Part shown: positions 8,846 through 48,757 of the stretch, one piece after another
Layout: every line of letters starts with the position of its first letter
Numbering within the stretch: position 1 is the stretch's first letter
Origin: Chrysophaeum taylorii
Lineage: Eukaryota; Sar; Pelagophyceae; Pelagomonadales; Pelagomonadaceae
Direction of reading: 5' to 3'
DNA length: 64,000 nt
Assembly (NCBI GenBank): GCA_029834535.1
Contig: JAQMWT010000055.1
Location: forward strand, 1 to 64,000
Program-made: the position numbers and the translations under genes
The notes under the pieces: generated by a model
What the model was told of the DNA's origin: nothing
The model's input: the letters and a program-made list of their open reading frames with translations, nothing else
Database searches by the model: none

Positions 8846-8855
8846 CTTTTTGAGT

Positions 8856-9890: not shown

Positions 9891-10006
9891 CTGTCTTTAA
9901 ATGTCGACGCTTTGAGTTGAGGTAGTTTCTTTCAACCGACCGGTCATTTAATCTTTAACCCTATTTTTTTGGGGGCGTCGTCACGGCTTATTTATTTATT
10001 AGGCTC

Positions 10007-29100: not shown

Positions 29101-32100
29101 GACGACGTCGCGACCCGCGTCGTCGAGGCGCCGCACGCGCAACTCCTTGGTCGACGCGGCTGGAATCTCGAGAACCATCGGGAGGAGGTGGTGGTGGTGG
29201 TGGTTATTGAGGCCTAAGTCGTCGCCGTCGTCGTCGTCCAAGGCGATGCGGCGCGGGCGCGTCGACGGGATCACGTTTACTTCGAACAACGTCTCGGAGA
29301 ACGAGGCCGCGCGCGCCGCGGAGAAGCACGCGACGCGCACCGCGATCTTTTTCGACCCGGCCGACGGGTTCGCGAGGTCGACGCGAAACCGTCCTCGAGC
29401 GATGCCTTCGTCGTCCAAACCGAGCTCCAACTCGCTGCCCAAACACGAATCGGCCGTCACGACGACGTACCGGGATAACTCGTCGTCGCGTTCGACCGGT
29501 TCGCCCTCGGCGTCGACGAGCTGGAGGACGAGATCGACCTCCGTCCGGTTCTCCATCTCGGCCGGGGGGGTGGATTCCAACAAGCAGAACCCCGCGGCCT
29601 TTGGAGGGAGAATCCGCAGCGGCACCCTCACTTCTCCGCTCGAAGAAGAAAGGACCACGCCGTCTTCGCCTTTCTTCTTGGGAATCCGGAGATTCATTTG
29701 GCCGTTTGGAGACACCCCAACCAACCAGCTCCGCGGTCTCAAGGCAACTCGACGACCGTCCTGGGTCGTCGGGTTCCCGCACTCGTCGACCCAGACGTAC
29801 TTCAACGAGATCGCGTCGCCGCGTCGCGCCTCCTCGACGCGCCGGCCGTTCAGGACAAAATAAGCGTCGCGGATCTCGCGCGGGTCGCCCGGGACGCACT
29901 CGATCTTGACCTTCTTCGGCGCCACGCCGTGCGGTGGAGTGCTCCAAACATCACCTCGGAGGCCAAACGCCAGCTCGTAAGTCCCAACTTTGCCGCCCTC
30001 GAGCACGCGTTCTTCGATCCAGCGCGACGAGTACCCGAAGACGGCGGCCTGTTCGGTCGGGTCTTGGCACCCGTTCGCGAGCGCGTACGGTCGCCACGGA
30101 AACTCCTTCTCCCCCACGGTCAGCACGGGGTTGAACGCGGTGACCTGTTGAGGACGGAAGCACCACCCGAGCATCCGATTAGCGTCGCCGTCGAGGATCG
30201 ACACCTCTAGGCTGGCGCGGGTCTGGCCAGCCTTCCACCGCAACGACGCGATACCGTCTTCTTCTTCTTCTTCTTCTGCGGTACTGTCTTTTCGCCGCCG
30301 CCGCCGCCGCCGCCGCGGCGGCCGCTCGGGAGGAGATTTCGCCGACGACCCCTTCTCGCGCCGCGGCGGCGTTTGCACCTCGTCTTCTTCTTCTTCTTCT
30401 TCGAACCTCGCGACCACTCGGAGCCGAGACGGCGCGCGCTCGAGGATCTTGTCGATCGCTTTCTTCGCGTCGGCCAGCGGGTCGATCTTGAAGATTGAGA
30501 CGGCGCGATTATTAGTATCTCTGAACAACGTCGCCGGCTCGCGCTCGACGTGCATCACGCAGTTCCTAAAACACGAGTTGTTGTTTTCGGTCGTTTCGTC
30601 GTCCGGCGGCAAAATTGCCGATATTTTCGCGACGAAGCTAATCATGGAGTCGCCCCGCCTGCCCTCGTTGCTCGAGAGGCGTACCTTTTCTTTGACCACG
30701 ACGCGGTCGCCGACCGAGTACCTGCGATGCCCGAGCGACGCCGTCCGAAACGTCGTCGTGGATTCGCGACCGCTCAGCACGACGCTCTCGTCGTAGGCGC
30801 GAGAAACCTCCTTCAACCAACGCGAAAACGAAGGTCCGATTCGGCTCGACTTTATCTTGTCCTCCGAGGAGGAGGAAAAGGAGGAAGAGGTTTTTTTCTT
30901 GCCTTGCTCCAAGGAGGCGGCTGGAAAGAAGTATACGTGAGACCACTTGGAATGGTCCGAGACGGCAATCGACGCGTCCGGGTCCTCGCCCGCGAGGAGC
31001 TTGGTAACCCCCTCGCCGAATTTGCTCTTCAAGGGGTCGACGTGCGCGTTGGCCCCAAACTGCAAGATCCCCGCGATCGACGACAACCGCTGCTTGCTTT
31101 TTTTCTCGTGCTGCTTGATGAACTCCAACGTGTCGACCGCGTAGTCGTACAACAGCTGGCCTTTCCAGTAGCACTGGAACCGCCTCTCCAACCCTCCGGT
31201 AGAGGAAAATTTCGTCCACGCGGTCCGAATCGGCATCTCCTCGCCGTCGCTCCAGCACGTCAGCTCGCGACCCTGCCGCCACGGAAGAAAAAACAGCCGA
31301 GCATGAATAGTCCCGAGATCGTGAACGCGTCCGTTCTTCTGGAATTGAAAACTAAAATCAAACCACGGCGCCGCCGTATCTCGCCGCGATATCTTCCGAA
31401 GCTGGCGCGTCAACGACCGCAGAGGATCCAGCCGCACCTCCCGCCGGCGGTTTAACGCACCACCACCACCACCACCACCACAAACCCGCCCCGTCTCGTA
31501 TACACTATCCGCATCGTCGACGTTGTTGTTGGTGTTGTTTAGGTAGACTCGAAAAGGCTCCTTCTGCTCGAAACACAGCTCGCAAACTATTTCCGGCGTA
31601 AATTTCAGGCAATTGTATTCGGGCTCGAGATAGACCGCAAAATTCCTCGAAACCTCCTCGGCCGCCAGCAAAAAGGGACGCACATCGTTCGGGCTCAGCG
31701 CCATTTCGCGCCGTACACCTTCGTAAATGGAATCCCCCACGACAAAGCACGCGAAGCTGTCCGGCGGATTCTCCGCGAGCTCTCGAGCGAGCAACCCCTT
31801 CAACGCCGGCGGACACTTTTCGAATCGATCCAACACCTTCTCGGGCTCGCGTTTGCTCCACGACAATATCTCGTTCCGGCTCCACTCCTCGCCCCGCGCC
31901 TCGCGCTCCATCGCGCGTTTCTTGTCGACGCGCATGAAGTGCACCATATCGCTTTTCTGAGGCCGCGAAACCGCGCAAATCGACTCGCCAGCGCTAAACC
32001 CCGCGGCCTTGCCGCCTCGTCCGAAAAAACCAAGCTCCCCGTCTGCAAACGAGTCGATACCTAGCGTCTCCTCGCCTTCCCGATCCACCGCTTTCCCGAA

Positions 32101-32652
32101 CACCTTCTCGTCCCGGTCCGCCAGCTTGGACCAACGCGTCAACGTCTCGGGCGTCATCCCCGCGCCGTGATCCAAGAACACAAAATACGAGAACTCGCCA
32201 CGCGCGTACACGTGGCAAATCTTTATCGTCTTCGACGCCGTCCCCTTGACCGCCCGAATCGAATTCGACACGAACTCTATGTGACTCAAGAAACCCTGCT
32301 TCCGCCCGTCGATGAACTGCACCCGGTCGTAAAGCACCCCCGACGCGGGCGCCGAATCCACCTCTTGGCGCACTATCCCCTCCACCTCCTCCTCCGACCT
32401 CCCAAGAAGCGCGAACTCGATCTCCTTGAACGACCCACCATCGTACCGGTACCCGCTGTGCGTGAACAGCGACACCCCTTCCTGGAACGGGATACCAAAG
32501 CGCCCACACGCCCGAATCACAAACTCGTCGTAACTCTCGCCATCCTCCACCTCGAACACCTCCTCGCCGCCGCCGCCGCCCCGGATCAGCCTTTTCGGCC
32601 GCACCCTCACTCTACGCCTGCTCACGCTTTCCCTCCCATGGCGGCAGGCCAT
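26146..32652 (-). CDS. SMCHD1-like protein: GHKL ATPase plus C-terminal SMC hinge
   Basis: A single uninterrupted frame of 2168 codons. The N-terminal GHKL ATPase has an N-box (FLSHIEFVSNSIRAV, about 121-135), FLDHGAGMTPETL (about 159-171) and the glycine-rich lid GFFGRGGKAAGFSAG (about 208-222). The long middle consists of repeated beta-rich Ig-like segments (for example ASHLAVLAK, DEFGNPARD, DEFGNAAT), as in SMCHD1. A coiled coil (AERRELKKMEQAAERTRKDI) precedes the hinge (FGSIVFFENINDATAYDTIF, LTLDGERIKADGSRGG, about residues 1,920-2,060), and a Lys/Arg tail follows. Human SMCHD1 (2005 aa) is a chromatin-silencing, chromosome-folding ATPase; plant GMI1/DMS11-type relatives act in repair and silencing. 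A nuclear chromatin role is inferred. The absence of introns in 6.5 kb is notable. Confidence 0.85.
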   Translation of the reverse strand: MACRHGRESVSRRRVRVRPKRLIRGGGGGEEVFEVEDGESYDEFVIRACGRFGIPFQEGVSLFTHSGYRYDGGSFKEIEFALLGRSEEEVEGIVRQEVDSAPASGVLYDRVQFIDGRKQGFLSHIEFVSNSIRAVKGTASKTIKICHVYARGEFSYFVFLDHGAGMTPETLTRWSKLADRDEKVFGKAVDREGEETLGIDSFADGELGFFGRGGKAAGFSAGESICAVSRPQKSDMVHFMRVDKKRAMEREARGEEWSRNEILSWSKREPEKVLDRFEKCPPALKGLLARELAENPPDSFACFVVGDSIYEGVRREMALSPNDVRPFLLAAEEVSRNFAVYLEPEYNCLKFTPEIVCELCFEQKEPFRVYLNNTNNNVDDADSVYETGRVCGGGGGGGALNRRREVRLDPLRSLTRQLRKISRRDTAAPWFDFSFQFQKNGRVHDLGTIHARLFFLPWRQGRELTCWSDGEEMPIRTAWTKFSSTGGLERRFQCYWKGQLLYDYAVDTLEFIKQHEKKSKQRLSSIAGILQFGANAHVDPLKSKFGEGVTKLLAGEDPDASIAVSDHSKWSHVYFFPAASLEQGKKKTSSSFSSSSEDKIKSSRIGPSFSRWLKEVSRAYDESVVLSGRESTTTFRTASLGHRRYSVGDRVVVKEKVRLSSNEGRRGDSMISFVAKISAILPPDDETTENNNSCFRNCVMHVEREPATLFRDTNNRAVSIFKIDPLADAKKAIDKILERAPSRLRVVARFEEEEEEDEVQTPPRREKGSSAKSPPERPPRRRRRRRRKDSTAEEEEEEDGIASLRWKAGQTRASLEVSILDGDANRMLGWCFRPQQVTAFNPVLTVGEKEFPWRPYALANGCQDPTEQAAVFGYSSRWIEERVLEGGKVGTYELAFGLRGDVWSTPPHGVAPKKVKIECVPGDPREIRDAYFVLNGRRVEEARRGDAISLKYVWVDECGNPTTQDGRRVALRPRSWLVGVSPNGQMNLRIPKKKGEDGVVLSSSSGEVRVPLRILPPKAAGFCLLESTPPAEMENRTEVDLVLQLVDAEGEPVERDDELSRYVVVTADSCLGSELELGLDDEGIARGRFRVDLANPSAGSKKIAVRVACFSAARAASFSETLFEVNVIPSTRPRRIALDDDDGDDLGLNNHHHHHLLPMVLEIPAASTKELRVRRLDDAGRDVVASTTATITATRDEEEPVVIARDEKLIVEAPQTGTAVYEISDSETGSKLALEVRATALAHAAWRVEKGPNVYVCNTPLDAHGLFAVPIDEFGNAATALAAPRLKILVAEEGDDDDDDSCFFSTTTTTGILNEKPRLIELVWSPGDESFTTTASIVGPKGRVHLELLGENEKLEYKMREGVLDARTELTLSRSVDARGLYKSVVVRAADLGGNILAVSPRDAFVRLIKTGEGAFYDDASGGGLLPEVRGSRWNRSERGFELDDFWVWGPYGDTFSAKAELVRSTDRRSLSVADRRRRCVQEEEVVCSSDVVPAFAMMDTPAPVELKVVVLTGVVVVAGMAVQRFRVLEVDEAREEAPCAPRERNITVTSPPSCVEVRARVADDGVVEVGEVLDDGSSSSSLGPLRVAGSYDVAVSSDGRGPAAEPLEVSHSFEVVPSRASHLAVLAKNSRNSFEKSLELPCVLVDDDLERFEVEQFEVLGCDEFGNPARDTGLDLDATLAISSKDEPNLGVSWELGTSSGTLRRGVPSKQRVLSSDDGKWRGKLFVVRASNNDKDSELVVEGVAELTVAFRLRDSEDDDYSAAAEVRFKVCDPRSRVWRRVALEEELSAERRELKKMEQAAERTRKDIDRVVKWVGDHKERLRELAPDCCCVEDDDDHNSLEANGRRVKTKLVDLDRRAGPTRADEWRRDQRLNNNQDAVVGFVKELFVVENDRLADLLSWHLGDRVLETLVTKTSKAATDLMNRRYQTKPVDRYRGSSDNLDTPPHARLRRYGEAASLIWARAFRASDRVFSLDPAADRVRDALFGSIVFFENINDATAYDTIFEKQKSSHNLTLLTLDGERIKADGSRGGPCGSFARATNRAIFRKKIPLDHPKSTYAKLGEWLDGLDEPIKIKALDYSFPLVEAPARVAAACRDLRQIDDNVDLAKQRARTLKTKITHLAADIDRIRSGKTNDDKDASAKRRRTEEEDDYSRPERGLRRRKHH

Positions 32653-32871
32653 ATACTGCTTGCTGGAAGAGTGGACCCGAGAAGGGTTTAGGATTGGGGG
32701 GGGGTTCTTGTGTGGTCGACTTGAACACGCTTTGCCTTTGGGGGCGTCGCGGTCCGGAGCTGGTCGACTTGACGTCGTCGTGCACCTGCGAGCGTGGTAA
32801 ATTTATGATGGAAGAGCGGCGGCTTGAGGAAGGAAGGAAGGAAGGAAGCACGGGCAAGGTGGGGTTTTTGT
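32653..32871. other. Short intergenic region with GGAA microsatellite
   Basis: GGAAGGAAGG repeats near 32,831-32,848; between the start of the SMCHD1-like gene and the end of the Fanzor remnant. Confidence 0.4.
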
Positions 32872-35816
32872 TTAAGCGTCGGCCGTGGTGGATCGGCGGG
32901 ATGCTCTCGCAACCAAGGCCTCCTCGACAGACTTTCTTCGTTCTTTGGCAATATTGCGACGTTTGGTCGATAAGTATTTCCCGAGGCCCTTGTCCTTATT
33001 CACGTCGACGTATGGTTCGTTTCCGTTGCCGTCACCACGAAGCGCGTAGTCGGTGTCGTGCGATTGTGGTCGCTGGGTGTTCGACCAGCGTCGTTGGACG
33101 CCCGTCGCGTTCGCGAGACCAGTCTGCGCCAGGATCCGAGACGCGAGCACGTCGCGTCGATGCATCACGTGGCACGACGTGCAGTAGGAAGTGCCGCGTG
33201 CCTTCCACGACCCGTGGACGTGCTGCTTCACAACCCCCCCACAAAAACAGCAGGTCCAGTTGGACCGGTGTTCGTCGGTGTATGCCGACGAGACGTTCTC
33301 GCGCTGGGTGATCTCCTTGGCCACCTGCTTCTCGGGCCGCGCTGTCAACGCTGACTTTGATTGCTTGCTTCGGCCCGAGAAACTTCGCGGCACGGTCGCC
33401 GTACCCGAGGCTTACCCGCATTCGCGGCGGCGCGACGCGGTTTGCCACGCCCGCCCGCCACGACTGCTTGCGCCGGATCAGCGCCATGCGCTGGCGCTTG
33501 GACCTGTTGCTGTTCTCGATGATGTTACCTCGGTCGTGGTTATTGAGGTACGTCTTGAACGCGTCGAGCACATCCTCCTTTGTCCGGGGGTTGCGGCGCC
33601 GCTCGTCGTCGATGTCAATTTCCAACGGCGCTTGCATATCGTCTTTCCGAGCTTCTTGCTCCCTTGCCAGGCGGCTGTTGCGCCTCCTGACGTGATTCTC
33701 GATTCGGGCTTTGCTGCGCGTGTCCCTCGCAGAAACCCGCAACGTCGTCCACAACGCGTTCTGGTCCCGCGGGTCGCGGAAGTGCGAGCGTATGCGTCGC
33801 GAAGTGCGAGCGTATGCGTCGCGATCGACGTCCTTCGGCTTGGGTCTTTTCGTGCAGACGCGCACGTTTCGAGTTGAGCTCGCAATCGGCTTGCAGGCCA
33901 ACACCCTCGGCCTTGCCGCGATCGACCACGTGCATGCAGACGGGGTACTTGATCCCCGGGTCAATCGCCCCGAAGATGTCGCAGTCGTCGAGGTTCAAGC
34001 CGCCATCGCCGTCCGCTTCCGGCGGTGGCTGTTCGGGCGGCCGGGGTCGCATGGGCGGCTGGAGCAGTGGGCGTCCCAAATGGGGGCGTTGCGCTGACAG
34101 TCGCTCCGCGAGCAACTGGTGTTGCGCGATTTGCTCGTGCATCGGCGTTCTTGCGCCTGCTCGAGGACTCTCGGACTCGCCGGCGTCGGCGTGCGTGTCG
34201 TCCAAGGCTTCTGCTGCCTCCTCGGGCTCTTATTCGACGGCGACCCCGTCGTCGCTCTCTTGGTCGCCGCTCTCGTGCCCAACGCGACGACGACGATCCC
34301 TCCGACGACCGACGGGGATCCGGACGCCGATGCCGTCCGTGAAGATAATCGTCTTCATAGTCGGCGCACGGTTCGGGGACTTGTACGCCTTCCGTAGGTC
34401 GTACAGGTCGTCAACGCCAACGGTCGGAAGCGAGTCCAAGTCCACGTCTATGCCCAACCATCTCACTATAAACCGTAAGCCCTCCTGTACGATGGCGTCG
34501 GTAACGGGCATGTAGCTGTCTTTGTGCCCTCGCATGAGCGGAAACAGGGCGCCCGGGTCGTACGCCTTGGCGATGACCAACGGATCGTCGGCCGGATCGA
34601 CGCCCGCGCCGTCGTCGCCTATAGATTGCTGTCGCGCAGCCACGCGACTGTACTCGAGAATCTCGAGGGTCGCCTTGATTTTTTGCCGCAGTATTTCCAG
34701 CAACCGCTGGAGGTCTTCTTTTCGGCCTCTAGCAACTTTGCCGATTTTTTTTTTTCTCTTCGCGGCTCGCGAACCTCGTAGCATGTTCGATCGCGTAGAG
34801 CTTGACGACGAACTGGTAGAGCGGCGAAAGGGCAACACGCAAGTAGTCGCGCTTGTCGGGGTCCCACGAGGCCTGGCCGTAGGCCTCGGCCAACATTCGC
34901 GCCGCCTGACGGTGGCTCACGGGCCTATTGCCAGTAAGCTTCATCGGCACGTCGTAGGGGTTCGGAGGATCCCTCTCTTGGGTTTTTTTTGGGTGGGGGT
35001 GGATAGCGAAGCCGATCTGCCTCCACCCCGTCTCGTCGAAGTCTAATGCGTCTCACAGCCTCGCGCCTTCCGACGTGCTTTCCTGCACCATGCTCCATTT
35101 TTGCCTGATGATCTCCGGCTGCGTCATGAAGCGAAAGTGCGCGACGCGCTCTTGGTAGTCGTGCACCACCACCGTCTGTTTTTGGTTTTGCGCTACATTT
35201 ATAGCGATCTCGGCGTCGATGGGCGCAAAGTCCATCTTCGCTTCGGCAGCGCACGTCCTGAGCTCGTCGAAGGTCGTCGGATTCGCGTTTAGAACAGACG
35301 TGATGGCTTCGACCGTGCCTTGGGATAAAGACGGGCGACAGCGTGAAGTACTCGCGCTGTTACCGTCGAACGCCGCATCGAGGGCCCTGCATGCCCCGAC
35401 GTACGCACGTGGCGTCGAATATTTCGAATCCGCGTTGTCGACATCCGCCAGCACGTCGTACGCGAGGGCATGCATGGCGATGTTTCGCCGAGTGTGCGAG
35501 AGGTGGACCAACGAATTCAACCCGTGTCGCCAGATGCCGATCACCGAGTGCGATTTGCCCAGGTTGTCCTCGAAGACGGGTCCGCTTTCGCGGTAAAACG
35601 ACGAGACGTAGCCAATGTGCGTGCGGGCCTCGTACGCCGAGTGCCATGCCGCGAAGCGCTTGCTCTGGGCATTTCCTGTGTCATACCACATTACACGACG
35701 CGCGATGATGCGACTCTACCTTTTCGCTTTGGCGGGTCGTCCTCTCCTTCCGACACCGTTGGACTCGAACCTGCCGTGAGGTTGCCCCCCTTAGTTCTCG
35801 GGCGCCCGCTCGCCAT
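32872..35816 (-). pseudogene. Fanzor (eukaryotic TnpB-like RNA-guided nuclease), apparently decayed
   Basis: Reading the minus strand: exon 1 35,816-35,720 (MASGRPRTKGG), 44-bp intron, exon 2 35,675-34,775, 46-bp intron, then a long exon to 32,872. Order of landmarks: helical N-terminal region; FTDGIGVRI just before the nuclease core; RuvC-I DIFGAIDPGIKYPVCMHVVD (about 34,020-33,950); a helical insert (ENSNRSKRQRMALIRRKQSW); GYGDRAAKFLGPK; DEHRSNWTCCFCGG; a CxxC...CxxC zinc ribbon ending YCTSCHVMHRRDVLASRIL (RuvC-III). This is the TnpB/Fanzor arrangement with both RuvC aspartates present. Two in-frame stops (TGA near 35,055, TAA near 34,230), a 22-bp tandem duplication (33,779-33,822) that shifts frame and another shift near 33,330-33,390 suggest a pseudogene. 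Unrecognised introns could remove some of these. Confidence 0.72.
33779..33822. repeat. 22-bp exact tandem duplication inside the Fanzor remnant
   Basis: GAAGTGCGAGCGTATGCGTC plus GC occurs twice head to tail (33,779-33,800 and 33,801-33,822). Because 22 is not a multiple of three it moves the reading frame; the protein sequence on either side is continuous if only one copy is counted. Confidence 0.85.
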
Positions 35817-35918
35817 CGGTACTTCTTCTTCTCGCCTTGCGCCCGTCGACGTGATTCTTTTGAGGCATTCGAGGATCTGCGCAATGAACAGTCGGTGAGT
35901 ATGATCGTGGTCAATAAG

Positions 35919-38900
35919 CTACTGTAGACGCGCCTCTGATTGATTCGCAAGGAGCTTGTTTTTCATTTCATTGCTTTCGTCCTGCAAGGCTATCACACTG
36001 GCGTTCAAGTCGCTGTGATTCTGCTCGAGGATCGCTAATCTTTCTTGTTCGCCGTCGCGCCGTCCTTCAGCTCCCTCTTCCTCCTCGTCGTACTCCCTGT
36101 GGGCGAGGTCGATCTCCTCAAACGAGCTTATTTGCCCGTCGTCGTTCTCGTCTATCCATAAACTGGGCACGCGCAATCCACATTGCTTGCGCAGCGTGTA
36201 GATCTTGTTCTCCCAGCGGCGCGGTGAGGCCGGCACTTTCGGCAACTCGTGCCTTTTTTGCGCGTCCCGTATGGTCTGCGTGAGGTTGAGACCATATTCG
36301 CGATCGTAAATGACGAGCTCGACGTTGGGAGCGAGTGATTCGAGGAGCAGGGCCGACCAGCCAGCGTCGTCAGTTTTCGAGAGCGCGCCGTTGTCGTGCA
36401 TGTAGATCGCGCCGCCTTTGTCTTTGTAATAACATTTGGAGCCCCATAGACCCCCCACCGTCACGGATCGCAGCTTGAATTTTTTTGCCGGTGCGTTGCC
36501 GACGGTGGTGAATTCCTCGTTGATCACCAATTTTGGAGTCGCCGAGGGCTCCATGTTCTCGTCGACGGCGTCTTCTTGATCTTCCTCCTCTCCCACAGCG
36601 CTGTGTGTGATGCTCACACACAGCGCCCCTTCGGGCCACTCTTTGATCTCGAGATCTTCCATAGCAATGGTGCTCTCGCTCTCGCCGCAGAAGGCGAACT
36701 CGTAGGACACGTCGTCTCGATGTGGTACACTTCGATGGGTGAGCAATTGCGAGAGTGGCACGCCTCCATCGCGGGGAGCAACTACGGGGAAGCACGCCAC
36801 GCGCTGAATGCACCCGGATCTTTTCTCACACAGCTCGCACCTGCCGCCACTTGAAGCGCAATTTCGACGACAATTGACGCGTATCTCCACCGTTGAGTGG
36901 AAAAAGCGCGCGAGCGGCGAATGACGCCCGTTTTCGAAATTCACCGAGCGCGTGTCTCTGATCACGCGGGTGAGCGCGTGCTGGCACAGCGCGCCGGCGT
37001 GGGCGGAACCTTTGGGCGTCACGACGAAACGAGCGCCCCTTTGCGACCCCATCGATAGCGCGATGAGCGCGTCGACAAAGTCCGTGCCGTCGGCTGGGGA
37101 AACCGGTCGTCCGAAGGGCAGAGGCGCTACCATTCTTGACATGACCTTGGTCAGGAAGGCCGCGGCCACACCCGCGCAGGTCGCTTTTGAGCCTTCGAAC
37201 GGCAGTTTAGGGTTGTGTGAACCTGTCTTTAAGAGCAGCAAAAATTGGTTAGTGTTCGCTGCGGCAAAAAATTCTGGGACGCTCGCCAAAGCGACAAGCA
37301 CGTTATCGGCACGATGATTGCCGCGCCTGTTGGTGATGCCCGTGTTGATAGGCCCCAGGGGCTTGATATAGACGTGCTCGCAAAAAAACCTCTCCGAACT
37401 GTTTCGAGGTCGCAGCCGAAAGCGCCGCGAGTTGCGCTTTGTTTTCCGACTCTCGAGGGGATCCATCTTGAATCCCGCGGCCTGTAGGACCTCGCGCACA
37501 TTGCCGTAGGTCGCCCCAGGAGCGACGCGGGCGAGCGCGTTTCGAGCGTTGCGATTGCGGGGACTCTGGGCCTCGTATACGACGAGGTGGGCGTCGCGAC
37601 GATCGACATCGACAGCATCTGCGGAGATGCGGACGACGCCGTGGCAAGTTGGCGTCAACCGAATCTGCTGCTCGCACGCTGACAACGGGCCCGGGTCGAT
37701 GATGGACGCCGGCAGGCCGATGTCGTATCGCACCCATTCGCCACCCACTCTGGCCCGCCCGACGAGGGCGTACTTCCGCGGGCCAAAAATGTCGTTGGTT
37801 TTAGCGTCACCGAGCTTCCCTTCCAAACGGCGAAGCGCCTCATTCCGCGCTTCTACGTCGATGTCATCAGTCGCCTGCTCCCGCGCGTTCGTATCGCCGG
37901 CGTTCGTTCTGTCCGTGTAGAACATCGGCACGACGACGCACTTGAGCTTGTAATCCGTGCGGCGCTGGTCGTGCCGCATGTCGCCGCGGGCTTGGAGCGT
38001 GAGGGTGAGAGGTAGACGCACGCTCTGGGCAGCCTGCCCGGGCACCGTCGGCTCGTATTCGACAAACAACGCCCCGCCCGATGGCTCGAGCAGGGTCCGC
38101 CTCGTCTCACAATTCGCGCACTGCCCGACGAGCGCGGCCGCGATTTTTGCGGCCTCGTCTCCGCCCGGATTCTCGCCAGGCACTGGTAGTGGGACGGTGA
38201 CCCGGTGGACGTACTCGTGTGTCCGCCCGGTCACGTGCTGGCCACCCTGCCCGCATTGACATGAATTCCCCACGCGCGAGCCACAGAGCACGTCGTGCGG
38301 TTTTCGAGGTCCCATCCCGAAACTGAGGGCGGTCTGCATGGAGGCGATTGTCGTTTTCAGAACGTCCTTCGGAGTTGTGTGGTCCCGGAAGGCTTTGTAC
38401 AAAGGGCCCCCGTCTATCGGGCTTGCTGCGTTGTAGCGACCGATGACGTTGAGAATGGTCGCGAGGACCACGGCCGTCACGGTCCGCGCGTTGAGACCAC
38501 GTTCGTCTCGAAAGTAGGGCACCAGCGACCCAAGATGGTAGCCCCATTTCATGCGCCGGCTGTAGAACTGGAAGATCTCGGAATGCGCGAGCGCCAGCAC
38601 CGCCGCCGCCGCACATGGCACGCTGTCACCCTGCGAGGCCAAAGCGATGCCCACAAAGCCCTGCTCGGGTGGGAGCGCGGCGGGGTTCTTGTCTCGTCTT
38701 CTATTCCTCGCTGAGTCGCGTCGTCTTGTTGTCGGAGTGCCGTCTGCTTCCGAAACGGTGCGGGGATCACCCCTCGGAGCACCCCTCGGCCCGCCGCACG
38801 CATCCTCGACGGATGCAAGGGCGTAATAGAAACGCATTTCGCCACGCCAGGGCACGTCGCCCCACGTTTCATAGCTCTCCGGCCCTTTTTTCTCGAGCGT

Positions 38901-39470
38901 CGACCCGCTACTGCTCCTCATCCAATCGACTCGAACGTCTTGCCCGTCGCGCACGGCGACGCGAACGTCGTTGTTGTTGGTGACCATTCGCACGGCCTTG
39001 AGATCGTATGCCCGCTTACCTTGTTCGTCGGAGAACACGAGGCGCTCGCTTGGGGCGAGACCCTGCCCCTCCTCGCGACTGCACTCCAGGGCAAAGGTCA
39101 GCGCCGGCGGCGGAGACCCCCCGTTCATTCTGGTCGGCAACACCATCTGGACGTAGGCGAGTCCCGAGGTCTTGCACCCAGCACACTGCCGCCGGACGAG
39201 AGCGCGCCCCGTAAAGAGGTCAGCGACCTTTGCGTCTTCGGGATGTGTGTCGTGCAGCAGTGGAATTGTCGCGGCACAGCGCTCCACTTGCCGCACGACG
39301 CATACGTCATCATCACGGTCTGTGGGCTCGCGAGATGCAACATCGCGGGTGGTGGCGGGGCTTGGGAATGCTCCCTGTTCTGAATGATGTATTCGTACAG
39401 AGTCATTTGTTTCTTTAGCTCGAAGGCAACCTGCCGCCTCCCCTTGCTGGTGAGCTCGTCTGTCGTCCAC
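35919..39470 (-). CDS. Tandem USP-like (C19 ubiquitin-peptidase-fold) domains, C-terminal segment of a large locus
   Basis: One open frame of up to 1183 codons, entered from upstream by splicing; the first supported residues are about at DDDVCVVRQVERC, near 39,325. At least two and a half USP-like units are seen. Unit one has VADLFTGRALVRRQCAGCKT and AYDLKAVRMVTNN...MRFYYALA. Unit two has PEQGFVGIALASQGDSVPCA, YKLKCVVVPM, YALVGRARVGGEWVRYD and DAHLVVYEAQ. Unit three has INTGITNRRGNHRADNVLVA, where the Cys-box cysteine is replaced (GNHRADN against GNTCYxN), then FVDALIALSMGSQ, CxxC fingers (RCELCEKRSGC) and VELVIYDREYGL. These look like mostly inactive ubiquitin-peptidase folds, perhaps ubiquitin-binding. 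The tail is acidic and coiled. The stop lies 103 bp before the Fanzor start. Confidence 0.55.
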   Translation of the reverse strand: MDDRRAHQQGEAAGCLRAKETNDSVRIHHSEQGAFPSPATTRDVASREPTDRDDDVCVVRQVERCAATIPLLHDTHPEDAKVADLFTGRALVRRQCAGCKTSGLAYVQMVLPTRMNGGSPPPALTFALECSREEGQGLAPSERLVFSDEQGKRAYDLKAVRMVTNNNDVRVAVRDGQDVRVDWMRSSSGSTLEKKGPESYETWGDVPWRGEMRFYYALASVEDACGGPRGAPRGDPRTVSEADGTPTTRRRDSARNRRRDKNPAALPPEQGFVGIALASQGDSVPCAAAAVLALAHSEIFQFYSRRMKWGYHLGSLVPYFRDERGLNARTVTAVVLATILNVIGRYNAASPIDGGPLYKAFRDHTTPKDVLKTTIASMQTALSFGMGPRKPHDVLCGSRVGNSCQCGQGGQHVTGRTHEYVHRVTVPLPVPGENPGGDEAAKIAAALVGQCANCETRRTLLEPSGGALFVEYEPTVPGQAAQSVRLPLTLTLQARGDMRHDQRRTDYKLKCVVVPMFYTDRTNAGDTNAREQATDDIDVEARNEALRRLEGKLGDAKTNDIFGPRKYALVGRARVGGEWVRYDIGLPASIIDPGPLSACEQQIRLTPTCHGVVRISADAVDVDRRDAHLVVYEAQSPRNRNARNALARVAPGATYGNVREVLQAAGFKMDPLESRKTKRNSRRFRLRPRNSSERFFCEHVYIKPLGPINTGITNRRGNHRADNVLVALASVPEFFAAANTNQFLLLLKTGSHNPKLPFEGSKATCAGVAAAFLTKVMSRMVAPLPFGRPVSPADGTDFVDALIALSMGSQRGARFVVTPKGSAHAGALCQHALTRVIRDTRSVNFENGRHSPLARFFHSTVEIRVNCRRNCASSGGRCELCEKRSGCIQRVACFPVVAPRDGGVPLSQLLTHRSVPHRDDVSYEFAFCGESESTIAMEDLEIKEWPEGALCVSITHSAVGEEEDQEDAVDENMEPSATPKLVINEEFTTVGNAPAKKFKLRSVTVGGLWGSKCYYKDKGGAIYMHDNGALSKTDDAGWSALLLESLAPNVELVIYDREYGLNLTQTIRDAQKRHELPKVPASPRRWENKIYTLRKQCGLRVPSLWIDENDDGQISSFEEIDLAHREYDEEEEGAEGRRDGEQERLAILEQNHSDLNASVIALQDESNEMKNKLLANQSEARLQ

Positions 39471-41188
39471 GACGGTTCGATGCCAATCGAACGAGCGTCG
39501 AGCGTTTTGATGACCGCGACGCCACAGTCTTGATAAGCCTGACGCACCACGTGTTGAGGATGGCTGCCCAATAGTGGGTTATACCCACCATCCTCGACGG
39601 TTACATTGAGTTCTGGTTCAGGCGACCCTGGTTCCCGTCTCCTCCTTTTCGGGGCTGGGTTCCCATCGGGCGAGGCATCCCTGCGGAGACAAAGGCCGGT
39701 GGCCAAGCCACGACCTTGACTGTGTTGACCAAGTCTGAGTCTATTGGCGACTCGTTGTGGTGCCGCGCCGAGTCCCAGCACGTAAGGTGCCATTCCCACG
39801 TCTCTCCTCGGTTAGTTGGGAGAGGAGGAATGTCCATTTCCAGGAGGGTCCAATGCTCATCTCGACATCTCGCCACAAGTACTTTCACTGGACCGTCTTC
39901 GGTGCGAAGAAAATCAAGCAGGCCACATAAGTGGTTCATATGGCCATATCGGATCTGCCCGTTGGCTTTATCGAGCTCGTTTGTCACGTTTTCTAAAAAA
40001 AGGCGGATATGTAATCGCGTTCTCCACAAGGGCCCAATTGTAGAGAATATCGATGATGTAGGTCCCTTCCCCGAGATCGAGTTGCTCGTTGCGCCTTTGA
40101 ATGAGTTTGGCGCATTCGACGATAATGACGTCGACGAGATAGTTCTGGTTGCTGAGAATGTCCCGAAGTTCACCACGATGACTTCTGAGGTACTCGTGAT
40201 CTATACCGTCGTTTATCACCGATGAGACGACGGTCCGCATCGTTTCGGTTGCTTCGGTGTTGCGCCAAAAATTGGCGATTGTAACCGTGTCTTGGGCATC
40301 GCGGGTCGCCGATAACTCCCTGTGCCCGTCGTCACGGTTGTTGTTGGCGATGTCTTGAAGAACGTTAAAGGGATTTTCGCCCGGGATGAAGCGCCCAAAA
40401 TTTCGCGCATGGGCTGCCACGTCACTTCCTTTTTTTTTTGTCGCAGGAACATCCACAAGCAGTGCCTTAGCAAGTGGACTCAGACCACTTTCGTTTTCCA
40501 CATGGCCGAGCGCGCTGGAAATTCCGACGACGTCTGCCCACGAGCGGGCCTCTTGCATGGTGGTCACGACATCAGACAACCGTTGACTCAGCGCATTCGA
40601 ACCCGACGCCGTGTATGTCAAAGCCCGACGTCGACACTGGGGCTGCCCCGTGTTCGTCGGAATCGGTGCTACTAGCACGAGTTTTTTGTATTCGTCGACG
40701 CTGTTACCCAAGCCCGGGTCGTCGGTAACTTCCCCGTTGTCTAAAAAGCGGCACGTTCGCCAGTTGTTCACCGCCGTGGCGACTGCGGCGCCACCTATCC
40801 GCACATTTGCACGATGGCCATCTTCGTCAATGTCGAGGAGAATCCAGTTCGCGTTTCCACAGTTCGCGTTTCCGCAAAGCAGCACCGAAATTGTGGACCA
40901 TAATTTTCGTCTATTTCCTTCGAAAGACTCGGATGGGGGTGGGTGCGTCGGGCAATTTCGGAGACCAACGATCTTTTCTGTGTGGAAGATGCACGTCTCG
41001 ACGCGACGTTCAGTACGTGCATCTTCATTTAGCATTCCGTTGAGTTCACCTTCATCATCGCCCATCGTCCCAGTCCACGGGAGCACGACGACGTTCTCCG
41101 GTTCCCCTCTTGACTCGATGTCGTGTTCGAGATGACAGGCGCAGTCAACTTGGAGCTCCATTCTTTGAACTTGGGTTTTTTTGGACAA
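39125..41188 (-). CDS. Ulp1-like (C48) SUMO-protease-fold segments, central part of the same locus
   Basis: Coding potential passes through three frames (41,188-39,968, 40,176-39,601, 39,799-39,125), presumably linked by short introns I could not place. The second half carries a full C48 triad in order: His in CRDEHWTLLEMD, Asp in CWDSARHH, then Gln and Cys in VRQAYQDCGVAVIKTLD, as in Ulp1/SENP peptidases that process SUMO. The first half has a related, weaker copy (GNANWILLDIDEDGHRANVR) in which the His is replaced, so it is probably dead. The segment overlaps the ends of both neighbours in different frames by a few dozen to a few hundred bases, which in a eukaryote argues for one spliced gene from 45,135 to 35,919 rather than three genes. 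Confidence 0.5.
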
Positions 41189-44100
41189 TTGACTTTTTTG
41201 CCATATTCGTAGTTTTGATTTCCTGGCAAAGAGTCCAAATCAACTCGACGGCATGGGCACGTTCAAATAGGTGCATGGACATCTCGAAAAGTTCCTTCAC
41301 ACGCTCAGGTATGTTTTTTGGTTGCTCGCCACTTTTTGACGACACGAGTCCCCAATGCCGAGAGCCTGAAATTTGCCCTCGATCATCCTTCCTATTGGGC
41401 CATTGCCCCTCTTCGTCAGTTGAGCCTGTAAAACCCGGTGCGCCACTGGGTGGAGTCCCAGTACGCAAGAGGGCGGATCGCCTGTCTTGCTTGGCGACAA
41501 GTTCATCGCTCGCGCGCGTATTTGGTTCTGGCGCGACTATGTATTCGAGGTGAGCGATGTCGAGCACGTTGTTTGGCGAAAGTGCCTCGTCGCGGCCCCG
41601 CCAAGAGCGCGAGCCCGGCGTCCCCTTTGGTTCATGGGCCTCAACGAGCACGGCGTGTACGAGGCATTCGGCGGAATTGGCGCCCGAGGCACATTCGTCG
41701 CACACGTCGGCGTTTTCATTGAAGAATATGTCGCTCAGCGTTGCTTTAGGACCGCTGGATGTCCCGCCTCTGCCGTCGATCACCCGCCACCCGTCTTGGT
41801 CGCGGCATAACGCTACGTTGTGGGCGCCAGTGACTGTCGGGCGGTGCACGATGACTCCACGGGTAGCATATGTCACATCGCAAAAATCGACAGTCTGAGG
41901 CACGCTTATTGCGTGGTTGGTGCTCTCGGAAAAATGTGATTGCCCAACCGCACATCGGCGTTCGAGGACGAGCAATGCGACATCCCCAGCGTTGACGAGA
42001 CTCGCCTTGTTGACGCACTCTTCCAATGATCCCAGCAGCCCCGATTCATTGCGCACGGGGAGGTTGATCGTGTACCGTATGCGAAGGGTCGACGGCTCGC
42101 CGATCAGCGACGCACCCTGCAGCACGCGCAGGTGGCCGTCCTCGTCCGCAGCCACGCACACAGGTGACGCTTGGTTATCGTCGTCCGCCCGCTTGTTGTT
42201 TAGCACGTACGCGTGATGATACCAGCACGCATCGAGCATCTTGACCACGTAGCAGCGATCCCTCGCAAGAGTGACGTGCTCGTACTCGAGCTTCCCGTTG
42301 TTGCTTTTCCTGGCAAGAAGGGCTCTGAGCAGCACGTTGCGTCTTCGTCCTTGGTCGGGTTCGAGCGCATACGCGAACTTCGCGACCTCGTCCTCGACGT
42401 CCTCGGCATTTTCGAAAACTTCATCGCCGTCATCGTCGAAGCGGTTGTTGTCGGGCAATTTGGCAAACGTGAGACCTGTAGTCGCATCGTTGCCCTCGCC
42501 CTCCGGCATAAGCAAAGCAGGCGTCACGAGGCGACCAAGCCCGTAGGCAGTGCTGGGTTTTCTGCCAGACAGCTCGCACTGCACGAGAGCGATAAGCGTG
42601 TGGAGCAATAGCCCGCAACACCCGGGCCCTGATTTGGGTACTTGGTCGCGCTCGTCCACTCGCACTGCCAGTGGCAGCTGTCCCTGCTTGGCGACCACAA
42701 CAGCGCGGAGCGTCGAAACGAGCGAGCGCGTATTCGAGTCGTCGAGGATTTTCTTGTTCTCTCGAGCGGCCAATTCAATCTTCTTGAAGATGTGATAGAG
42801 CACGCCGCTGACAGTCAGGCGCTGGGCATCCCAACTGCGCGGTATATCGGAGAGGAAAGCGCCGTCGTCTCGGAAAAAATTGCGCACGAGCGTCGAGCAT
42901 GCGAGAAGCTCGAGGGTCGTCACGAGGAAGCAATCCTCGCCCGAGACGTTGGGCAGCGCTACCGGGCTCGGCGACGACGACGGACTCGTCCCCGCGCACG
43001 GCCATCGTGGCACCCCTTTCCCCCCCCTCTCCGGCACCAGCTTTTTGCACAGGGTGAGCGCTGAGCTCACCCGTGTCTCAAGCACCCGAAGCTCCCGGAT
43101 GACCCTTCCGGCAGTAACGTCGTCCCCTTGCTCAAGCGCACGCTGGCCCTCGGCAGCCAGCACGTCGTGGCTACCGATGAGCGATTTTACTAGGGAGGAT
43201 TTCAGTTCCTGCTTTTGCTCGTCTGGCACGCCGCCGGCCTCGATGATTACGGGCTGTGGTCGCTGCTCGATGTTCCCGCCCGCGCGTCCGTCGGCACACA
43301 ACCCCTGGGCCTCCCGCCGGCGCACCAAACTTTCGCGGTCAAATTCGTCCTCGTCTGTGTCGTCAACGAGGGAAGCAACTTCGGAGTCGTTGTCTGAGAT
43401 CAGACTCGCGGCTCCCGCACATGCCTCGCCACGCTTGGTCGTCCCGGGCGATGCGGTGCCCCAGTGGACAGCAATCTCCCGCCACTGGTCGTTAAAAATC
43501 TCGTCATCATCGACGACGGTTCTTGCTTCATCGTCGCCGTCTGGCAAATGCATGTCGTCGTCGTTCGGGTCATCTTCGCCCTGGTGGACAGCCTCGTCGC
43601 CTACCGCGGTGAACGAGGCTTGTCTTTCCAAGTCATCGGCGCCCGGAACAACGTCGCCACCCGACCCGTTCCCGTCGAGGACCGAGTCACTCGTCGACGA
43701 CGCACGATCCGCGTGACCCACGCTTGATGGCGCCTCGCGGCCACCGCCCGCACTGCATGTTGCCTCGGCAAGGTTGGGGGCATGCTCGTCCCCGAGTGCG
43801 CTGAAAAGCGGCCTGGCCGGCGAACTCCGGCCACGTGCGACGTCGCTCAGAACGTCGGTACTGCTCGGCATCCCGTCGCTCGACACTTGCAACGTGTCGT
43901 TGCTAGATCGCGCAGAATTTTCTTGGAAGGTGGACACCGTGCACGACGGCGGCTGGTCTGACGAACCCACCTGCTTCGGTCGACCACGAGCCGTGTCGAG
44001 GTCTTCGTCGACGGAAGCAGGTGCTTTCCGACAGGCACGCCGTCCCTCGAGCGCGGACTCGACGATTTTGATCCGGCGAAACAGTCGAGGTCTGAGATGG

Positions 44101-45135
44101 GCCGCGATGCGCTTCTCCACAAGCAAAGGGACCCAACGCCAAGACGGCAACAAAGCACAACGGCGGACGCGTGACGGGTGCTCGGAACGCATCGCTCGGA
44201 GCGCTGGCTGACCGATTGGTTCCTTGGGCCACTGTCTGTTCTGCACGCACGGCGAGGTGACCCCAGTCAAGGTTCGTGGACTGCGCCAGCTCTGTCGTCG
44301 ACATGCAGCGACGCGGCGCCCCTTCCTCGCCCGTCGAGACAGCGTCATCCGCAGTTGAGCATCGAACACGACTCCTGATTTCCTTTCGGCGACGGCGAAC
44401 ATCGCGCTCATGACGCATAATCCCCCAGCGCGCTGCGTAGAGCCAGAAAACAACAAAGTATCCTGAGAGCGCGAGGACGGAGGCGCAAATTGTGAGGGAC
44501 TCGATGAGCACGGCGATGGTGAAGAGACCCCTCCATACGTCCGTGCCTCGCGAAATGACTGCGTGATATCGCGAGCCAGTCTGCGCCGCCAATGCAGGTG
44601 ATGCTGGTGTTGTGTGCAGACTTTCGCAAGCCAAAACCGCGATCGCGCAAGCGACGATCACCACCTTGCTCGCCGTCGACGCCCACGCGGCCCTGCACAT
44701 CGCAAACCACATCGCCGCCCAGCGGGCCTCCAGCACCGCGTCCAAACGCCCGGCCGCCTCCTTGTGCACGGAGGCCTTGCGCTTACGGGAGGGCCTTGTT
44801 CTCCGCCGCTTGCACTTCTTCTTTTTCTTCTTCTTCATCCTCTGCTTTGCTGCCAACATCTCGCTCGACAGCCGTTCGCTAGCGACCACATCGGCGCCCG
44901 ACTCGCCCATCTCACCGCGACCAGCCGCAGACCCCGTTGCCACGTCTTCCGTCACACGTGCTAAACCGGCGCGCTTCTTGTTCTCGCCGCCCCCTTGACG
45001 TCGACGCCGACGCCGGCGGCGACGACCGCGGCGACGGCGGCGAGGCTTGGCAACCGTTTCTTCCGCGGGGTGTGCCGTAGTGAGGCACTTGCGCTCATGA
45101 CACTCATCAACATCCGCTACAGCCTCCGTGTCCAT
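41145..45135 (-). CDS. N-terminal part of the locus: basic region, two membrane helices, USP-like domain with catalytic residues
   Basis: Starts at 45,135 (MDTEAVADVDECHERK). It first reads an Arg/Lys-rich region, then two hydrophobic helices (KVVIVACAIAVLAC and GLFTIAVLIESLTICASVLALSGYF). A frame change near 44,100-44,180, probably an intron, leads into a long acidic disordered region. The USP-like part follows: a Cys-box VALPNVSGEDCFLVTTLELL (about 42,960-42,900) with cysteine in the expected place, CYVVKMLDACWYHHAYVL, and a His-box ATRGVIVHRPTVTGAHNVAL with GWRVIDGRGG (about 41,880-41,780). Cys, His and Asp may all be present, so this unit could be an active deubiquitinase-like enzyme anchored in a membrane. 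Exon limits are approximate; continues into the C48 segment. Confidence 0.5.
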
Positions 45136-45325
45136 CAGCCTTCTTTTTCAACGAGCACGGCGTTCTTGTGCCTTGAAGGAGAATAGCTCCTTCTGTGGCA
45201 TTCGAAACGCACTTTAAACGGACCGTTTTTGACCCAACGGCATTAGAGGCCGACGGAACAATCCGGAACAAGGGTTTCGGGTTATCTCTTGACGCTAGTA
45301 AAATAGCATGCCATTTTATTGTACA
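45136..45325. other. Short upstream region of the USP/Ulp locus
   Basis: Candidate promoter space between the start at 45,135 and the inverted helicase unit ending at 45,326. No clear TATA box recognised; sequence is less GC-rich. Confidence 0.35.
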
Positions 45326-46332
45326 ACAAGTGCAGGCCAGTAAGTTCACCTAGTCCCAATCTCTAACCCCAGTAAGTACGGCGCAAACCCACTCGTGCTC
45401 ACACCCACTCACCCCACTCTCCTTTGAGCTCGTCGCTCTCACCCCCGCCAATCCAAGCTGCTTTGATCCGCACGCGCCGCCAACCCTTGAGTTTACTCTA
45501 AACACCCCAGTAAATTCACCTGGTCCCAGTTAGTTCACCTGGTCCCAGTTTGTTCACCTGGGCACTCAGCTCACCTAGTCCCAATCTCAAACCCCAGTAA
45601 GTACACCTGGTCCCAGTAAGTTCACCTACAGTGCGCGTGTAGACGCCGGAAAGGGGGCTTATCGGTATTGCGCAGCACGTGTGGGGTAGGGTGGAGTCGT
45701 CGACCCAGATGAGTATATCCTCGGGGATGCCGATCGACAGAGAGCCACGTAGAGCTGGACGTGGCAGAAGACGGGCTTGTGGGCAAGAGGACGCCGACCT
45801 CGCGGGGCGTCTGGTCCTGGCTCTTGTTGATCGTTTGGCGTAGGCGGGCCTTAAGGGATACAGGTTGGAGGAGCCTCGGTGACAACGACACGATCGATCA
45901 TGTATCTGGTACCGTTGCAGTGGCCGTGCGAGACGGGTCGAGGTTGCGAAGACTTTAAGCTCGCGATCAAAGTCAACATGCCGTTGGTTGTCAGGGAGTT
46001 CAAAACTCGACTGTAAAGAGCGAGGCGTCGGCTTCCGACCCAACCTAGTCGGCCGAAAAGAACTCCGACGCCTCGTCTTCGGGAAAAAAAGGCCGCGGTC
46101 ATGCGCGCGTTGTCAGCATCGACAACATCGTTTCGACGGGGCGTGAGAATGGCGCGCCGAAAGAGCCGCCGCGGCTCGTGGAAATAGTCTGCGAGGTCGC
46201 CGTAGACGGCTTGGAGGGTCACTGTCTGGCTCTCGCGCCTACCTGATCCTTACTCTCGCGCCTACCTGATCCTTACCCTAAATCGAGGGACAGACAAACA
46301 GACAAACAAACATCTGTCGATTAGTAGTTAGG
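45326..46332 (-). mobile_element. Helitron/PIF1-type helicase C-terminal fragment, unit 2 (inverted copy of unit 1)
   Basis: Same content as 8,856-9,890 but on the minus strand: it starts (minus sense) TCCTAACTACTAATCGACAG at 46,332 and ends CTGGCCTGCACTTGT at 45,326. Helicase blocks are again recognisable (RAILTPRRNDVVDADN, FLNSLTTNGM, INKSQDQTPREVGVLL). Similarity to unit 1 is high but not perfect, with the GTGAACTTACTGG motif array at its 3' end. Truncated and non-autonomous. It lies directly upstream of the USP/Ulp locus, so it may have supplied promoter sequence. Confidence 0.7.
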
Positions 46333-47140
46333 ACAAGTGCAGGCCAGTAAGTTCGCCAGTAAGTTCACCTGGTCCCAATCTCTAACCCCAGTAAGTTCAC
46401 CTGGCCCCAGTAAGTTCACCTAGTCCCAATCTCTAACCCCAGTAAGTTCGGTGTAAGCCCACTCGTGCTCACATCCACTCACCCCACTCTCCTTCGAGCT
46501 CGTCGCTCTCACCTCCGCCAATCTAAGCTGCTTTGATCCGTACACGCCGCTCGCCTTTGCGTTCACTCTAAAAACCCCTGTAAGTTCACTTGGTCTCAGT
46601 AAGTTCACCTGGTCACCAAGTTCACCTTGTCCCAATCTCAAACCCCAGTAAGTTCACCTGGTCCCAGTAAGTTCACCTACCGTGCGCGTGTAGACGCCGG
46701 GAGGGGGCTTATCGGTATTGCGCAGCAGGTGTGGGGTAGGGTGGAGTCGTCGACTCAGAAGAGGATATCCTCGGGGTTGCCGATCGACAGAGAGCTACGT
46801 AGAGCTGGACGTGGCAGAAGACGGGCTTGGGCAAGAGGACGCCGACCTTGCGGGGCGTCTGCCTCTGGCTCTTGTTGATCGTTTGGCGTCGGTGGGGCTT
46901 GAGGGATACAGGTTGGAGGAGGTCCCAGTAAGTTTCATATAAGTTCACCTGGTCAGTAAGTTCACCTAGCTCATACCCACTCCTTTGAGCTCGTCGCTCT
47001 CGCCTCCGCCTATCTAAGCTGCTTTGATCCGCACACGCCGCAAACCTTTGAGTTTGCTCTAAAACCCCCCGTAAGTTCACCTGGTCCCAGTAAGATCAGG
47101 TCACTAAATTCACCTAGTCCCAATCTCTAACCTTGGTATA
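46333..47140 (-). mobile_element. Helitron/PIF1-type helicase fragment, unit 3 (shorter, diverged, tandem to unit 2)
   Basis: Ends (minus sense) with the same CTGGCCTGCACTTGT terminus exactly where unit 2 begins, so the two lie head to tail. It retains only the last helicase blocks (RRQTINKSQRQTPRKVGVLL, KPVFCHVQLYVALCRSATP, about 46,720-46,920) plus motif arrays on both sides. The outer boundary near 47,120-47,140 is approximate. Confidence 0.6.
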
Positions 47141-48600: not shown

Positions 48601-48757
48601 CACCGTCGCACCGTCGCACCGTCGCACCGTCGCACCGTCGCACCGTCGCACCGTCGCACCGTCGCACCGTCGCACCGTCGCACCGTCGCACCGTCGCACC
48701 GTCGCACCGTCGCACCGTCGCACCGTCGCACCGTCGCACCGTCGCACCGTCGCACCG
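48601..48757. repeat. Octamer satellite (CACCGTCG)19.6
   Basis: CACCGTCG is repeated perfectly about 19.6 times. Because 8 is not a multiple of 3, all frames are open and each encodes a period-8 peptide on either strand, which produces several spurious open frames here. Confidence 0.97.

Follow-up and report, generated by a model that had tools for sequence, protein, structure and literature searches.

A probable Fanzor1-type nuclease gene, now decayed, at the end of a multicopy element of about 13 kb in the alga Chrysophaeum taylorii

In the Fanzors and TnpBs studied so far, the nuclease uses an RNA from the end of its element and cuts target DNA. As marks of Fanzors, Yoon et al. (2023, PMC10711439) describe a DPG in RuvC-I and an alternative RuvC-II glutamate placed six residues ahead of the zinc finger; for Fanzor1 they add a TDG in the WED domain. 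According to the motif description of Bao and Jurka (2013, PMC3627910), Fanzor/TnpB proteins follow D-X(125,275)-[TS]-[TS]-X-X-C4-X(5,50)-RD, and the Fanzor1 families CRe-1, CRe-2 and CRe-3 of Chlamydomonas reinhardtii are attributed to Helitron2. Fanzors in algae are not new, since the species table of the same paper includes other algae, e.g., Volvox, Chlorella, Nannochloropsis and Ectocarpus. Here, a stretch of 64,000 nucleotides from the Chrysophaeum taylorii genome (C55:1-64000, hereafter the window) was analyzed; a feature on its minus strand is very likely a decayed Fanzor1-type nuclease gene, the last gene of a multicopy mobile element of about 13 kb. The genome searched comprises 70.8 Mb in 697 contigs, and the 70.8-Mb assembly together with a geranylgeranyl-reductase-like open reading frame (ORF) in the window makes an algal nuclear origin of the DNA plausible. 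Among the titles and abstracts listed from the open-licence Fanzor literature, none describes this element.

The gene reads from an ATG at 35816 to a stop codon at 32872-32874 (Table 1), about 950 codons by our own count when the candidate intron and the extra bases are discounted, in line with the family-size length put forward in a first-pass annotation of the letters. The motifs named there were recovered on the minus strand in the claimed order and place: TDG upstream of DPG, in the window as well as in the related copies L012 and L018; DPG inside IDPGIKYPV, which begins at 33965 in the window and is also present in copies; the zinc-ribbon stretch DEHRSNWTCCFCG...YCTSC at approximately 33276-33172; and RRD. 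In both copies tested (L012 and L018) six residues separate the glutamate from the first cysteine, the C4 and RD parts of the Bao and Jurka motif are matched, and the spacing from D to the first [TS] is 221 and 224, within the published range of 125-275. Among 200,000 shuffles of a related open frame none gave DPG..E..C4..RD, as compared to 137 with a loose C4 plus RD. The L012 copy holds 551 open codons running to the same stop as the window gene, and L018 stays open for 681 codons, which include TDG, DPG, zinc ribbon and RRD, until a late frame change of its own; judged from these two copies, the C-terminal half reads as one continuous frame. With TDG, DPG and the glutamate six residues before C4 all present, the tests favour the damaged Fanzor1-type copy that had been proposed. 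By motif, the putative RuvC/zinc-ribbon arrangement is the one expected of an RNA-guided nuclease, as in SpuFz1 and GtFz1 presented by Saito et al. (2023, PMC10432273); SpuFz1, however, is described there as lying in a 2.1-kb single-ORF element with inverted repeats, whereas the present element spans about 13 kb and gave no intact frame for the protein in the ten loci listed.

Table 1. Features of the probable Fanzor1-type gene and of the element around it (window positions).
Feature	Position	Strand	Basis
Probable Fanzor1-type nuclease pseudogene	32872..35816	minus	ordered motifs; relatives on 23 contigs; open frames in L012/L018
TDG, Fanzor1 WED signature by published motif	34332..34340	minus	sequence; PMC10711439
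RuvC-I DPG	33954..33962	minus	sequence; signature from PMC10711439
Putative alternative glutamate (GAA 33271-33273), then C4 zinc ribbon CxxC...CxxC	33172..33273	minus	spacing in L012/L018; weak TNB match
Putative RuvC-III aspartate of RRD (in HRRDVLAS)	33151..33153	minus	sequence; pattern test in two copies
Lesion: in-frame TGA	35053..35055	minus	sense codon in C546 copy
Lesion: 1-bp length change in A-run	34745	minus	extra base vs 3/7 copies
Lesion: in-frame TAA	34230..34232	minus	GAA in 6/7 other copies; seventh deleted there
Lesion: 22-bp tandem duplication, frameshift	33803..33824	minus	extra vs 6/7 copies; visible in sequence
Lesion: 1-bp insertion, frameshift	33338	minus	extra vs 5/7 copies
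Candidate 44-nt GT..AG intron	35676..35719	minus	joins two open frames; borders kept in most copies
3' noncoding part to shared terminus, expected place of an omega-RNA scaffold	32670..32871	minus	at least 25 places; 15 copies aligned
Whole element copy, about 12.7 kb	32670..45326	minus	similarity limits vs other copies
P0001, element ORF, 1219 aa	35922..39578	minus	open in window
P0003, element ORF, 423 aa	39971..41239	minus	open frame in window
P0002, element ORF, 1170 aa	41148..44657	minus	471-aa part recurs on 8 contigs

The profile evidence for homology to TnpB and Fanzor is weak but concordant. The Pfam zinc-ribbon profile TNB (PF07282, curated cut-off 26.3 bits) matched the window frame at E 0.0038 and 17.8 bits, below that cut-off, and the seven trimmed members of alignment A5 (five of the window's Fanzor family and two of a second genome family) all matched it at E<=1, the best at 3.3e-5. 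Searched against the PDB, the A5 profile reached 11 sequences at E<=10, six of which are of the TnpB/Cas12 type: the TnpB-like L79, LaTranC (two), a TnpB, a Cas12 and one labelled 'Transposase'. These six matches lie near the C-termini of the proteins at E 0.06-0.38, none being significant alone; LaTranC and 8hr5 are, as we assume, members of the TnpB superfamily. L79 (PDB 9b0l), which we take to be a mimivirus Fanzor2, was the second-best PDB match of A5 (E 0.062, non-significant alone) and was matched over the C-terminal zinc ribbon and RD; unlike L79, the present family bears the Fanzor1 mark TDG, and the element ORFs gave no recombinase match. Additionally, two PHROG 'transposase' profiles matched the zinc-ribbon region of L012 (E 0.009 and 0.017). 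Homology to TnpB/Fanzor is suggested because the PDB matches concentrate on this group and the signature is complete, with no single match passing a curated cut-off. The gene would represent a new Fanzor1-type lineage that has diverged past curated profile cut-offs despite a complete catalytic signature, and diverged Fanzor1-type genes may be under-counted because such cut-offs miss them.

The second family in the genome aligns with the window's family over the zinc-ribbon region (BLASTP E 4e-4, tblastn about 1e-5). It was read in L029 (C29), L030 (C314) and L031 (C409), with EFRSSMTCPNCG; an upstream DPG is found in L031, and at the last catalytic position GRE replaces RD in all three copies read. 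This Fanzor-like family is nearer to Pfam TNB than the window's family, yet below the cut-off, and it received the sole match of the defence models, a weak one to Cas12f (E 0.0085).

The window copy of the gene is dead. The damage claimed in the first-pass annotation was found by comparison with seven other copies and consists of two in-frame stops, one tandem duplication of 22 bp and two insertions of a single base; in the counts of Table 1 the remaining copies of the seven were not scored as having a gap at the same place, and the TGA at 35053 was read against the C546 copy alone, the seven-copy comparison having given no reading there (context word absent). These frame breaks are best read as lesions, since in L012 and L018 the frame of the C-terminal half runs on across several of them. 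Of the two short introns that had been suggested, the 44-nt interval is plausible and the other frame breaks look like lesions: the donor GT is kept in nine of the ten aligned sequences, window included (L022 reads GC), and the acceptor AG in all nine sequences reaching it; L020 carries four extra bases inside the interval.

A protein-level search of the genome with the C-terminal 179 residues of the window frame yielded 46 matches on 23 contigs, C55 included, so that further copies do exist as had been supposed. One stretch each from 20 of the 22 other contigs was compared (C5 and C36 were left out). The similarity stops sharply at window position 32670, and this 3' end is common to 14 of the 20 compared loci within about 15 bp, the other six stopping 80-400 bp earlier; the last bases of the element read ...CCTAAACCCTCCTCGGGTC, with a few variable positions. 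The 3' 200 bases occur at no fewer than 25 places on at least 24 contigs, six of the places being pieces of approximately 50-110 bases. The middle (38000-39000) was found on at least seven contigs, all seven of which also hold the 3' end, and the 5' kilobase gave long matches on at least seven contigs and short ones of 35-47 bases on three more. The window's own copy is included in each of these counts, which are lower bounds because only the best candidates were scored. The 471-aa part of P0002 recurs on eight contigs, the window's included, and together with a P0001 part on five, again counting the window's. Three of the eight contigs lack a 3' match: C460 and C46 end before the 3' end of the element, and on C481 the similarity stops at 32843. 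The 5' part on C154, present without a P0002, middle or 3' match, is a counterexample to strict 3' anchoring. In all, some two dozen copies are present in the genome, mostly shortened and decaying, with internal deletions in several. In the truncated copy L017 (C110), about 1.5 kb (window 33192-34694) are inverted in place. Moreover, the contig pairs C25/C521, C297/C10 and C268/C6 show near-identical matches at near-identical coordinates, which suggests that some regions were assembled twice, perhaps as two haplotypes.

At its 5' end, the window copy is about 170 bp shorter than the copies on C317 and C460, which start at an identical CCCCCAGC with differing flanks. The Fanzor-type gene is the last gene of the element, and three more long ORFs lie upstream of it. 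Neither P0001 nor P0003 nor P0002 matched anything above the Pfam cut-offs or anything in PHROGs and NCBIfam, nor did P0001 and P0002 match in the PDB. Residues 300-1150 of P0001 had no match at E<=0.1 in a protein database, where about 8,000 candidates were scored. No resemblance was seen between P0001 and P0002, between P0001 and P0003, or between the halves of P0001. The sub-threshold Pfam matches of these ORFs were Thioredoxin_3 (0.037) and Cytochrom_C552 (0.23). An impression, gained by eye, that they might encode a ubiquitin protease was dropped, as nothing of the kind was found in Pfam, NCBIfam or PHROGs (P0001-P0003) or in the PDB (P0001, P0002). The nuclease type is already known; the other long genes of its carrier are without a match in the searches made.

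A larger candidate, a 38-kb element between inverted repeats at 8.9-9.9 and 45.3-47.1 kb, was rejected because its arms are also present elsewhere as a repeat of their own and unrelated gene-like ORFs lie between them. The two copies of this dispersed repeat (8854-9891 and 45325-47132) are in opposite orientation about 36 kb apart and are 89-98% alike over the longer pieces; the one at 45325-47132 borders directly on the Fanzor element copy at its 5' end.

Domain-profile searches gave no match to a transposase, a reverse transcriptase (RVT) or a recombinase in the element ORFs; with neither transposase nor reverse transcriptase recognised, the element was therefore probably mobilised in trans. 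As in CRe-1/2/3 according to the account in PMC3627910, a Fanzor1-type protein resides in an element without a recognised transposase, the 3' end is kept, the 5' end is truncated, internal deletions occur and a target-site duplication (TSD) of variable length is seen at a truncated copy. It differs from these families, as described there, in its size of about 13 kb with three extra long ORFs, and the TTTT target and paired terminal repeats of CRe-1/2/3 were not found here. We give somewhat less than an even chance to the carrier being a non-autonomous Helitron2-like rolling-circle element of the CRe-1/2/3 kind, mobilised by a RepHel protein encoded elsewhere in the genome. A Helitron2 carrier would be expected to insert after TTTT and to have asymmetric terminal inverted repeats of 8-15 bp and hairpins at both ends. 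In favour of it, beyond the shared copy pattern, the genome holds 44 Helitron_like_N matches, 39 of them above the cut-off. Of two copies folded, one had as its best structure a possible 5' hairpin, CCCCAGC/GCTGGGG, hairpins being weak or variable overall, and a 12-bp direct repeat flanks the truncated copy L024. Contrarily, TTTT precedes neither of the two defined 5' ends, where ..CAGAG(C) and ..AAGCC(T) are read instead, and a 7-bp inverted match between the ends was reached by 65 of 500 shuffles and is at chance level. In the TSD test, which covered the 12 copies with both junctions (others were left out, a junction being outside the stretch or lost), the repeat at L024 was the single flank repeat to exceed all 132 cross-pairs (12 bp against a maximum of 10); the window copy has an 8-bp match that lies away from the junction. 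Furthermore, none of the 23 contigs with C-terminal relatives carries a RepHel match; C268 and C6 do combine a piece of the 3' end with a RepHel match, about 134 kb apart, and C48, where the distance is 24 kb, is the only contig common to RepHel matches and 5'-end-like places among the matches listed. Second copies of the flanks, as expected of empty sites, were sought beside two insertions (window and C54), and none was found.

For the 5'-terminal 111 bases of the element (L036:1049-1159), 60 candidates were scored, 40 of which gave at least 41 matches on at least 35 contigs. In the loci read this stretch belongs to another repeat, the similarity running on upstream in L039-L042 and L022; beside it, L040 and L042 hold a frame that resembles a RAP-domain protein by eye.

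Spread by target-primed reverse transcription, i.e., of an RNA element that depends on a long interspersed nuclear element (LINE) and is truncated at its 5' end, appears unlikely. It would account for the 3' bias of the copies and for the 12-bp duplication at L024, and the genome is rich in reverse transcriptase genes (152 matches, contributed by 150 of the 611 candidates scored), but the element ORFs are without a reverse transcriptase match and the candidate intron, if real, is kept in copies. Three observations fit a DNA element better: two copies share their first 5' base but differ in their flanks, in L021 39 bp of the 5' leader stand immediately before the last 770 bases, and on C154 the 5' part comes with no 3' end. 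In our estimate there is a small probability that the three upstream ORFs serve to mobilise a so far undescribed class of large eukaryotic transposons, with the Fanzor as a retention factor; if it is true that these ORFs hold the element's own machinery, eukaryotic RNA-guided nucleases would have a new type of carrier in this element. Independently of the carrier, the 3'-anchored, 5'-truncated copy pattern of the Chlamydomonas Fanzor elements is seen again here.

Several results weigh against a Fanzor1-type nuclease gene in a mobile element. All listed TNB scores of the window's Fanzor family lie below 26.3 bits, the untrimmed 681-aa frame of L018 has no TNB match at E<=1, and when all six frames of the genome were searched with TNB, eight places were listed, none in this family. 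The top PDB match of A5 was mS66 (E 5.9e-5), an unrelated ribosomal zinc protein that also ranked first in single-sequence PDB searches; the five PDB sequences outside the TnpB/Cas12 group were three mS66 mitoribosomal chains, a DNA glycosylase and a Rab protein. Neither the Fanzor frame nor alignment A2 found a match at E<=0.1 in the protein database, about 8,000 candidates being scored in each search, and no relatives of the family were found in the viral contigs. AlphaFold on L012 with a shallow 10-row alignment gave no usable model (mean predicted local distance difference test score 33.5, predicted template-modelling score 0.17), and in the Bao and Jurka motif the second [TS] is an N here (S-N-W-T-C). 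None of the ten loci with frames listed has a single open frame across the whole gene; the idea that the gene marks a transposon family with intact copies elsewhere was borne out as to the multicopy family, with C-terminal relatives on 23 contigs, and not as to an intact frame. Similarly, the agreement with TnpB/Fanzor profiles expected in the first-pass annotation was obtained as matches of all seven trimmed members at E<=1, none of them above the curated cut-off.

The substitutions among copies belong on the same side of the balance, being close to neutral in the C-terminal half. Twenty copies were compared with the L012 frame, in comparisons that share a reference, include divergent fragments and are non-independent: 1646 substitutions fell 556/504/586 by codon position, and 448 were synonymous, 1169 nonsynonymous and 29 stops, as compared to random expectations of 27.3, 69.1 and 3.6 percent. 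Departures from neutrality were a rarity of stops relative to expectation, a small deficit at second positions (p 0.043 in the L012 frame and 0.00045 in the L018 frame) and, over the N-terminal 257 codons, a modest surplus of synonymous changes (152 of 451 against 26.9 percent expected). Taken to its end, the case against would make the C-terminal cysteine-rich region an unrelated, convergent zinc ribbon and the nuclease assignment wrong, as the first rank of mS66, the lack of matches above curated cut-offs and the missing TNB match of the full L018 frame might indicate, but this is very improbable given TDG and DPG upstream at family spacing, the glutamate six residues before C4, RRD, the six TnpB/Cas12-type sequences among the 11 reached in the PDB and the TNB matches of all seven trimmed members.

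For the preferred Fanzor1-type gene, the intact ancestor would have encoded a RuvC/zinc-ribbon nuclease of about 950 residues. By analogy with studied Fanzors and TnpBs, we propose that this nuclease would bind an RNA transcribed from the 3' end of the element and running into the flank and would cut the matching empty site, so that the element would be kept or copied back. The 3' noncoding region is conserved across 15 aligned copies. Compensatory changes were found in none of 25 pairs in the 15 copies and the folding energy of the region is ordinary (z -1.00, -1.76 and -0.56), two further results on the unfavourable side, and Rfam gave no match in window 32600-33100; an omega-RNA at the 3' end of the element is not supported by these sequence comparisons.

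Beyond the 3' end of the element lies an SMCHD1-like ORF of 2218 codons (26146-32802), which matches SMCHD1_S5 and HATPase_c_3. The element insertion may affect the promoter of this ORF, because the 3' end of the element is located 17 bp upstream of its likely start codon at 32652-32650. Elsewhere in the window, positions 48597-48756 hold a perfect tandem array of the 8-bp unit GTCGCACC.

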